From Candidatus Bathyarchaeota archaeon (GTDB lineage: Archaea > Thermoproteota > Bathyarchaeia > Bathyarchaeales > Bathycorpusculaceae): DNA of 64,000 nt. Of the stretch, positions 17,073 to 52,222 are shown piece by piece (position 1 is the stretch's first letter; every line of letters starts with the position of its first letter). The notes under the pieces are model-generated. The model searched no databases. It saw only the letters and a list, made by a program, of their open reading frames with translations, and was not told where the DNA came from. The stretch spans positions 1 through 64,000 of the forward strand of contig JAOZHY010000048.1 of assembly GCA_026014595.1 (NCBI GenBank), read 5' to 3'. Made by a program: the position numbers and the translations under genes.

Positions 17073-17196
17073 GGGCTGCCAGCTTTCCCAGGTTCACGTG
17101 GCCGAAGACCACACTACAGCTGGGAACGGAACGCGGTTTAACTTCTGAGTTCGGAATGGGATCAGGTGGGACCCGCGCCCTTTGGCCGGCAAACCC
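17073..17196 (-). rRNA. 5S ribosomal RNA
   Basis: On the minus strand the sequence contains the universally conserved loop B/C segment CCCATTCCGAACTCAGAAGTT and the loop E/helix IV region near its 3' half. The terminal helix pairs GGGTTTGCC (5') with GGCAGCCC (3') with one bulge, so I set the ends at 17196 and 17073 (124 nt). It is unlinked from 16S and 23S genes in this window, as is usual in this part of the archaeal tree. The exact ends may shift by a few bases. Confidence 0.9.
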
Positions 17197-17300: not shown

Positions 17301-17377
17301 ATGTCTGCAGTTTCCATTTAGGTGTTCGTACCTGTTGGTGGGGCTGTAGTCTAGGCAGGCATGACGACGGGCTCCAG

Positions 17378-17444
17378 AAAGCAAGCAACGGGTTTGCTGA
17401 CCTCGCCCAGAGGAATGACGAAATTCTGGAGCGGTCTTAGAGAA
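17378..17444 (+). ncRNA. tRNA-Trp intron 1 with box C/D guide-like elements
   Basis: 67-nt intron at the canonical 37/38 position. It holds a perfect box D' (CTGA, 17397-17400), a box C'-like ATGACGA (17416-17422) and a weak D-like CTTA (17436-17439). ACGGGTTT (17388-17395) is perfectly complementary to AAACCCGT (17443-17450) across the 3' exon. The fifth base before CTGA pairs with C39, the position methylated by the tRNA-Trp intron guide in Haloferax (U39 there). TTCTGGAGC (17424-17432) is complementary to the anticodon loop GCTCCAGAA. This matches the known self-guiding tRNA-Trp intron of Euryarchaeota. The box C proper is not obvious. Confidence 0.65.
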
Positions 17445-17450
17445 ACCCGT

Positions 17451-17480
17451 AGGAACGGCCAAGCGACTGTTTCCGGGTAA
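17451..17480 (+). other. tRNA-Trp intron 2, in the variable region
   Basis: About 30 nt between the anticodon stem and the variable loop. The AGG triplet is repeated at both boundaries (17451-17453 and 17481-17483), so the exact splice points are ambiguous by up to 3 nt. An internal GGAA/TTCC pairing (17452-17455/17471-17474) can form the intron stem. I could not draw a textbook bulge-helix-bulge, so a relaxed motif must be assumed. Confidence 0.6.
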
Positions 17481-17543
17481 AGGTCGTCGGTTCAAATCCG
17501 GCCAGCCCCACCAAACGCCACACCAGAACCTTAACGTGGAAAC

Positions 17544-49005: not shown

Positions 49006-49785
49006 ATGCAGCAAGTTGAAATCACAAAATACGACCTTTCAACGAAAACATCCAAAAAAATAACCGACTACATAGCAGAAGAAAAGCCCCTCCACCTTTT
49101 CGTGAACAACATGCACTGGGCAACCATCCTCTGCACGCCTTCGAACCTGAAAGAGATGGCAGTTGGGCACTTGCTCTCCGAAGGAATCCTAAAATCCACC
49201 ACAGAAATCGAAGGAATCGCCCTCAAAGAAAACACCTGCACCGTGAAACTGAAACCAGGCATAGATGTCGAAGACCGCATAAAACTCTCCAGACTCCACG
49301 CACGCGTCATTGCATCCGCTTGCGGAAGCGACCAACCATACCAGTACACGGGCAAGGTGCCCACCGTCAAATCAGGATTAACCGTGAAAGCAGAAGTCGT
49401 CTTTAACTGCGTGAATCAGCTGAACTTCAGGGCTGAAGTTTTCAGGAAAACAGGTGGAGTACACGCAGCCGCCATCTACAAAGCCGATGGTGCATTGGTC
49501 GCCATCGCCGAGGATGTCGGCAGACACAACGCGGTTGACAAGGCTATTGGAATGGCAGCCTTGAACAAAGTGGATTTCGGCGAGTGTTTTCTGGCTTCGA
49601 CTGGAAGATTATCAGGTGACGTGGCATTCAAAGCCGCCAAGGTCGGCTTACCAATAGTCGCATCGCTTGCGGCTGCACTTTCTTCGGGCATCGAAACGGC
49701 TAAGGCGGCAAACCTCACGTTGGCAGGTTTTGTGCGGGGAAAACGCATGAACATCTACACTTTCGACAATAGAATCTTGTTGTAG
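49006..49785 (+). CDS. fdhD: Formate dehydrogenase accessory sulfurtransferase FdhD
   Basis: 259 residues. FdhD transfers sulfur to the molybdenum/tungsten bis-pterin cofactor of formate dehydrogenases. Hallmarks are GHLLSEGIL, the Cys loop (SACGSDQPY), TGGVHAAAIYK, AEDVGRHNAVDKAIG and the C-terminal LSSGIETA. The usual CxxC at the Cys loop is here CGSD, with only the first Cys retained. The E. coli enzyme needs both, so the mechanism may differ. It is 13 nt downstream of the RimK gene and overlaps the convergent AIR-synthase gene by 31 nt. No formate dehydrogenase lies in this window. Confidence 0.88.
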   Translation: MQQVEITKYDLSTKTSKKITDYIAEEKPLHLFVNNMHWATILCTPSNLKEMAVGHLLSEGILKSTTEIEGIALKENTCTVKLKPGIDVEDRIKLSRLHARVIASACGSDQPYQYTGKVPTVKSGLTVKAEVVFNCVNQLNFRAEVFRKTGGVHAAAIYKADGALVAIAEDVGRHNAVDKAIGMAALNKVDFGECFLASTGRLSGDVAFKAAKVGLPIVASLAAALSSGIETAKAANLTLAGFVRGKRMNIYTFDNRILL

Positions 49786-51499: not shown

Positions 51500-52051
51500 T
51501 CAAAGATAAATGTTAAGCGCTTTGCTTTTCTGGAGTAGGTAGATTATGACCACGCTTATCACCATCTCAGGAAGCATATAGCTTGCATTGTATCCAACTG
51601 AGTAAACGAAGGGGTTCAGGTCTGGCGCAAACATCGGAGCAAACCAGACTACGCCAGATATGAAGTGCATCACGAAGCGTCCCGTTGTGCCCACAACCAC
51701 GCCGAAAGCGGGCCATTTTTTGAAGAAACCTGCCAAGCCGAGACAGCCGAAAGCGAACGGGTAGTCAAACAGAACTTGAGCAGGGTTATACGCGTAAGGC
51801 ATAACAACTAGCTGTACCACGCCGTACAGTGCGCCTGTGAACAAGCCGATTTTGGCTCCTCTTCTCAGCGATAGCCACAGGATAGGAACCATCGACCCCG
51901 CGGTGACTGAGCCGCCCTGCGGTAAGATTGTGAATGTCACGAAACTTAACGCCGTCGCCAAGGCAACAAAGGTTATGATTTCGGCGAGTATTTTGGTTGA
52001 AAAAGCTTTTCTGAGTCTGGTCAATAAGGTAGGTTTGTTTGTTTGGTTCAT
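51500..52051 (-). CDS. thiT: ThiT-type thiamine transporter (ECF S-component)
   Basis: 183 residues from the ATG at 52051. The track's longer start (52090) translates the riboswitch itself. Six hydrophobic helices, with the S-component/ThiT pattern in GGSVTAGSMVPILWLSLRRGAK and GVVQLVVMPYAYNPAQVLFDYP. ThiT takes up thiamine with an ECF energising module; none is in this window. A TPP riboswitch sits in its 5' leader, which supports the assignment independently. The KaiC-like and AIR-synthase-like genes follow with short gaps, hinting at one TPP-responsive unit. Confidence 0.92.
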   Translation of the reverse strand: MNQTNKPTLLTRLRKAFSTKILAEIITFVALATALSFVTFTILPQGGSVTAGSMVPILWLSLRRGAKIGLFTGALYGVVQLVVMPYAYNPAQVLFDYPFAFGCLGLAGFFKKWPAFGVVVGTTGRFVMHFISGVVWFAPMFAPDLNPFVYSVGYNASYMLPEMVISVVIIYLLQKSKALNIYL

Positions 52052-52052
52052 T

Positions 52053-52150
52053 GTTTTTCCCTCCGCCAGTATTATCTGGTTCAGGTTCAAAGGGTCGACA
52101 ACAGCGTCGGTTGTCCTCTCAGCCGGGTTCGCTCCCAGCTCCCCGAAACC
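52053..52150 (-). promoter_or_regulatory. TPP riboswitch in the thiT leader
   Basis: On the minus strand the leader contains the hallmark GGCTGAGAGGAC, ACCCTTTGAACCTGAACC and CCAGATAATACTGG (the GAUAAUxCxGGCGxAGGGAA box) of the THI element. The 5' GTTTC can pair with the 3' GAAAAAC as P1, closing the aptamer. The 3' strand includes GGAGGG, the only good ribosome site for thiT, 8 nt before the ATG. Ligand binding can therefore hide the site and block translation. TPP riboswitches are well documented in bacteria and in some archaea. Confidence 0.93.
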
Positions 52151-52177
52151 TTAAAGGGGATAATGTTTTTAGGTGGT

Positions 52178-52188
52178 ATTTTAATTTT
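52178..52188. promoter_or_regulatory. Shared AT-rich promoter box between thiT and valS
   Basis: ATTTTAATTTT is nearly symmetrical and may act as TATA box in both directions. On the minus strand a start about 25 nt away falls at 52155, just ahead of the riboswitch. On the plus strand the same spacing falls at 52210, giving valS a short leader. Confidence 0.4.
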
Positions 52189-52222
52189 CCTAAGCAAACA
52201 AGCTAACGAGGAACCGTGAAGC

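Follow-up and report, generated by a model that had tools for sequence, protein, structure and literature searches.

Bathyarchaeia are a major, uncultured and poorly studied lineage of sediment archaea, and a locus in the first 64,000 nucleotides of contig JAOZHY010000048.1 (Candidatus Bathyarchaeota archaeon, assembly GCA_026014595.1; hereafter the window, to which all coordinates refer) raises the question of whether these organisms control thiamine uptake with a riboswitch and, if so, by what means and together with which other genes. A sequence-only reading had placed a thiamine pyrophosphate (TPP) riboswitch at 52053–52150, overlapping the Shine-Dalgarno sequence of the transporter gene thiT. 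It had also held that TPP switches with translational control are rare in archaea outside Thermoplasmata and that a KaiC-like gene and an AIR-synthase gene, described as HypE/ThiL-like, might belong to the same run. Our analysis confirms the element, at the level of sequence, as a genuine TPP riboswitch, a class already known of which the Bathyarchaeia copy is a new member. Its arrangement indicates that it is very probably of the direct translation-attenuation type, upstream of thiT.

With cmscan, the Rfam model RF00059 matched positions 52155–52041 on the minus strand at 68.3 bits (gathering threshold, 54.3; E = 2.7e-11) over all 105 model positions, and this was the single match in the 2.06-Mb genome. 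The span proposed earlier was recovered as the aptamer from P1 to P1. The window copy retained the core sequences CUGAGA, AACCUGA, GCG, and AGGGA unaltered, and 37 relatives showed no variation in them, except that one relative carried AGGAA instead of AGGGA at the 3' end of the aptamer. Comparison of 38 related aptamers yielded 123 compensatory cells in the RF00059 structure versus 37.8 ± 7.4 in shuffles; 16 of the 29 base pairs changed on both sides, and 90% of cells were paired. The compensatory changes were located in P1, P2, P3, and the variable stem, and the covariation signal became strongly weaker once the partners were slid out of register. A degenerate or relic aptamer whose regulatory role has been lost would suit the weak P1 of the window copy, which contains one imperfect pair, but this explanation is countered by the bit score, the intact core bases, the covariation across the class, and the correct target gene, and it appears extremely improbable.

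Matches to RF00059 were present in 163 of 257 Bathyarchaeia genomes, and the TPP switch is therefore ordinary in this class. The claim of rarity outside Thermoplasmata was thus not upheld, with 160 of these genomes above the cut-off (Thermoplasmata being outside the search). A phylum-wide sample gave matches in 69 of 398 genomes, including 15 genomes from three families outside Bathyarchaeia. No relevant report on riboswitches of Bathyarchaeia was found in a literature search that covered papers readable without a subscription. To define the regulon, we considered 138 aptamers with downstream genes, whose representatives were named by NCBIfam. The gene directly behind the aptamer encoded ThiT at 69 loci, a ThiW-type S component at 19, ThiC at 13, CytX at 7, a thiamine-type ATP-binding cassette (ABC) transporter binding protein at 4, ThiDN at 3, and a ParA-like ATPase at 3, with a few singletons. 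Given that these genes make up a thiamine regulon, they lend strong support to TPP as the presumptive ligand.

Several other arrangements were seen at these switches. At 11 loci (L101 and related loci), the aptamer precedes an unnamed membrane protein resembling an S component of energy-coupling factor (ECF) transporters, which has no NCBIfam match and is possibly a transporter of a thiamine precursor. A MinD/ParA-like ATPase with no known role in thiamine metabolism is encoded directly behind the switch at L029, L110, L118, and L130. Two TPP switches lying near each other on a single contig occur at L083, L084, L098, and L082, for example before genes for CytX and a ThiW-type protein or before thiC and thiT.

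The position of the aptamer relative to thiT suggests how control might be exerted. The 3' end of the aptamer reads CUGG-CG-GAGG-GA-AAAAC-A-AUG. As had been proposed, it overlaps the Shine-Dalgarno sequence of thiT: GGAGG (52064–52060) lies within the 3' strand of P4, and the 8-nt spacer that separates it from the ATG at 52051 holds the 3' strand of P1. Shine-Dalgarno–like sequences precede 21 of 54 first ATGs but only 31 of 262 internal ATGs in the window (p = 8e-6), and we take this enrichment to mean that the genome uses Shine-Dalgarno sequences. The start codon is situated 4 to 9 nt past the aptamer GGGA in 79 of the 138 related aptamers, which comprise most thiT loci and some ThiW loci. 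The starts of thiC, CytX, and ThiDN genes are distant, lying from tens to >150 nt from the aptamer (mostly 60–160 nt for ThiC and CytX).

Upstream of the riboswitch, before the divergent valS gene (52223, plus strand), the stretch GGAAAATTAAAATA at 52190–52177 resembles an archaeal B recognition element (BRE) and TATA box, and 131 related loci share a rise in A+T content that lies 44 to 27 nt before the aptamer GGGG. From the typical archaeal spacing between TATA box and transcription start, transcription is predicted to begin at approximately 52151–52155, at the first aptamer bases. With the TATA-like box (52184–52177) and the A+T peak thus placing the start at about P1, the predicted leader would consist essentially of the aptamer alone. 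With little TPP present, the P4/P1 end would be loose, and the 30S subunit could reach GGAGG and initiate thiT at 52051. When TPP is abundant, P4/P5 and P1 would be locked with GGAGG and the spacer contained in them, translation of thiT would drop, and ThiT would cease to deliver thiamine via the shared EcfA-EcfA-EcfT module. The KaiC-like and AIR-synthase-family genes would be carried on the thiT mRNA. Direct occlusion of the ribosome binding site (RBS), with the OFF polarity that this scheme predicts, is thus the likely mode of control.

A true TPP aptamer might instead act on mRNA stability or transcription elongation, in which case the overlap with GGAGG would be incidental. The purine-rich 3' consensus of the TPP aptamer indeed looks like an RBS on its own, and the Shine-Dalgarno sequence is predicted to be mostly paired both with and without ligand. 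On the other hand, the interval between aptamer and ATG is too short for a terminator or other expression platform, and thiT loci of many genera hold the start at a distance of 4–9 nt, whereas the leader at thiC loci stays longer. The G that creates GGAGG, at the variable position of the 3' consensus, is also enriched where the start codon is close, occurring in 73 of 81 direct versus 33 of 51 distal loci (Fisher p = 6e-4), although the loci are related, so that they do not represent independent events and the p value overstates their independence. We therefore consider control at the level of stability or elongation unlikely.

This relatedness of the loci is one of several points that weigh against direct translation attenuation. 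Nearest-neighbour folding did not yield an open RBS in the ligand-free state: GGAGG remained mostly paired, with an unpaired probability of ~0.0–0.3 per base, and the ON state is thus an assumption. The sister genome G001 (L135) has ACG at the position of the thiT ATG. The transcription start and the operon transcript are predictions, and the support as a whole, consisting of sequence, covariation, and geometry, is computational.

Direct translation attenuation is an established mode of TPP riboswitch action (Barrick and Breaker 2007, PMC2258182), and the present case resembles it in that the RBS is buried in the conserved purine-rich 3' part and a separate expression platform is absent; it differs in occurring in Bathyarchaeia. 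TPP riboswitches before thiT are also known in Firmicutes, such as RSthiT of Lactococcus lactis (PMC8862789), with the same aptamer class and the same transporter. At the 11 bacterial thiT loci inspected, unlike the window locus, thiT begins at least ~50 nt past the aptamer, and the base that creates GGAGG, which is G in the window, is T in 10 of the 11. As of a 2021 paper (PMC8241225), the Thermococcus fluoride switch was the only archaeal riboswitch shown experimentally. The kind of riboswitch described here is already known; what is new is its operon partners.

The target gene was identified as thiT, beginning with the expected ATG, by both Pfam (PF09515, 141.3 bits) and NCBIfam (TIGR02357, 128.8 bits; equivalog cut-off, 108.45), and its product matched the solved ThiT structures 4mes and 3rlb. 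The closest named relative is the ThiT of Candidatus Bathyarchaeota archaeon A05DMB-2 (97% identity). We considered whether this might be an orphan S component lacking an energiser, but an EcfA-EcfA-EcfT run on contig C36 (EcfT identified by Pfam, the two ATPases read from open reading frames) constitutes a shared energising module and rules this out. ThiC was not found in this genome, which is 89% complete, and TPP-controlled ThiC is retained in some relatives. The organism is probably dependent on thiamine uptake.

Features of the locus are collected in Table 1. The KaiC-like gene follows thiT on the same strand after 15 nt, and the AIR-synthase-family gene follows the KaiC-like gene after 20 nt. 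A search of the class with the AIR-synthase protein retrieved 78 orthologues (46–100% identity, counting the copy in the window). Of these, 68 follow a listed TPP switch on the same strand at a distance of no more than 3 kb. A further 8 were found behind a TPP switch after their flanks had been fetched, and the remaining 2 are cut by contig ends. All 76 testable orthologues, from several families and at 46–92% identity, therefore lie behind a TPP switch, after either thiT or the KaiC-like gene. At 42 of the 68 linked loci, the space between switch and AIR-synthase gene has room for thiT only; at ~25, the gap also fits the KaiC-like gene, which was located there by tblastn. The two genes could be chance neighbours of thiT outside the thiamine operon, given that the KaiC-like gene is missing from 42 of the 68 linked loci and that the protein models for both products indicate no thiamine function. 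Such a coincidence is hard to reconcile with the 76 of 76 testable orthologues and the short same-strand gaps, and we judge it very unlikely. The short gaps and the gene order conserved across families instead support the earlier suggestion of a single run, in which thiT, the KaiC-like gene, and the AIR-synthase gene form one operon and are presumably co-transcribed.

Two further observations concern this gene order. On a contig binned as Anaerolineae (L036, DUEW01000209.1), a TPP switch is followed by bathyarchaeal genes for ThiT, the KaiC-like protein, and the AIR-synthase protein; the contig is probably mis-binned. In the window, FdhD (49006–49785, plus strand) is convergent with the AIR-synthase gene and shares 31 bases with the 3' end of the latter, and FdhD is found nearby in several relatives.

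Table 1. Positions of the riboswitch, its putative promoter, and the genes of the thiT operon in the window.
Feature	Position	Strand	Basis
Predicted archaeal promoter: BRE-like GGAAAA (52190–52185) and TATA-like TTAAAATA (52184–52177)	52177–52190	-	Read from sequence
TPP riboswitch aptamer	52041–52155	-	Full RF00059 match, invariant core, covariation over 38 relatives
GGAGGGAAAAAC	52053–52064	-	GGAGG (52064–52060) in P4 3' strand, then P1 3' strand (52057–52053)
thiT, S component of ECF thiamine transporter, 183 aa	51500–52051	-	PF09515, TIGR02357, structure matches
KaiC-like RecA-family ATPase, 235 aa	50777–51484	-	PF06745, 105.9 bits; fold of PH0284/KaiC
AIR-synthase-superfamily enzyme, 333 aa	49755–50756	-	PF00586/PF02769; below every NCBIfam cut-off

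The KaiC-like protein shares its domain and fold with the RecA-family ATPases KaiC and PH0284 and keeps the Walker A motif. It differs from them in consisting of a single domain, in carrying a conserved DVMDKPF sequence (D-V-M-D) at the position of the catalytic glutamate pair (EE) of KaiC, and in being encoded in a thiamine operon. Assignment as a KaiC clock protein was rejected, given the single domain, the replaced EE pair, and scores below all cut-offs. TPP switches at L139, L115, and L136 precede genes for a MEDS-like protein that is weakly related to KaiC and for a DUF2284-like protein.

The predicted fold of the AIR-synthase-superfamily protein is that of the HypE/SelD/ThiL superfamily, with HypE the closest (predicted local distance difference test, pLDDT, 94.6). 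The earlier HypE/ThiL-like description needs correction in that the protein is neither a ThiL nor, by its models, a HypE. Although the protein shares superfamily and fold with ThiL, their mean identity is ~24%, and it scored 84.1 bits against TIGR01379 (cut-off, 184.15), with a separate ThiL encoded on contig C12 scoring 245.5. The HypE family is marked by a C-terminal cysteine; the window protein ends in KILLSKV, without a cysteine, and scored 74.7 bits against the HypE cut-off of 251.6. Its score for SelD was likewise under the cut-off.

Thiamine imported by ThiT must be converted to thiamine monophosphate (TMP) or TPP, and ThiL handles only the final step, from TMP. A ThiL-like match was present in 63 of 66 good relatives. 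Thiamine pyrophosphokinase was detected above the cut-off in none of the 257 genomes of the class, with a control search detecting it in 7 of 14 known genomes, and ThiK gave only weak matches in the class, all below the cut-off. The best ThiK match (97 bits), rejected as the missing kinase, was in G126, a genome without a listed AIR-synthase orthologue. Given that a protein of a kinase superfamily is tied to thiT in every testable case and that no pyrophosphokinase or ThiK exceeded the cut-off, we tentatively put forward the AIR-synthase-superfamily protein as a candidate for a new thiamine kinase (thiamine to TMP), a step apparently missing from Bathyarchaeia, while rating this assignment well below even. 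Thiamine may instead be handled by other routes, such as kinases of unknown families, import of TMP by ThiT, or salvage by ThiM/ThiE. Were the protein such a kinase, it would be co-produced with ThiT under one TPP switch, and the KaiC-like protein would serve, in some members of the class, as an accessory factor or a regulator.

Elsewhere in the window, a probably intron-containing tRNA gene with long insertions was noted beside the 5S rRNA gene (17340–17510, plus strand, and 17074–17193, minus strand).

The TPP switches found across the class provide many natural examples of archaeal riboswitches, among which two types of leader can be distinguished in Bathyarchaeia: one with the RBS inside the aptamer, at thiT, and one with a longer leader, at thiC. 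The operon reduces the gap in archaeal thiamine salvage to a question about one protein.
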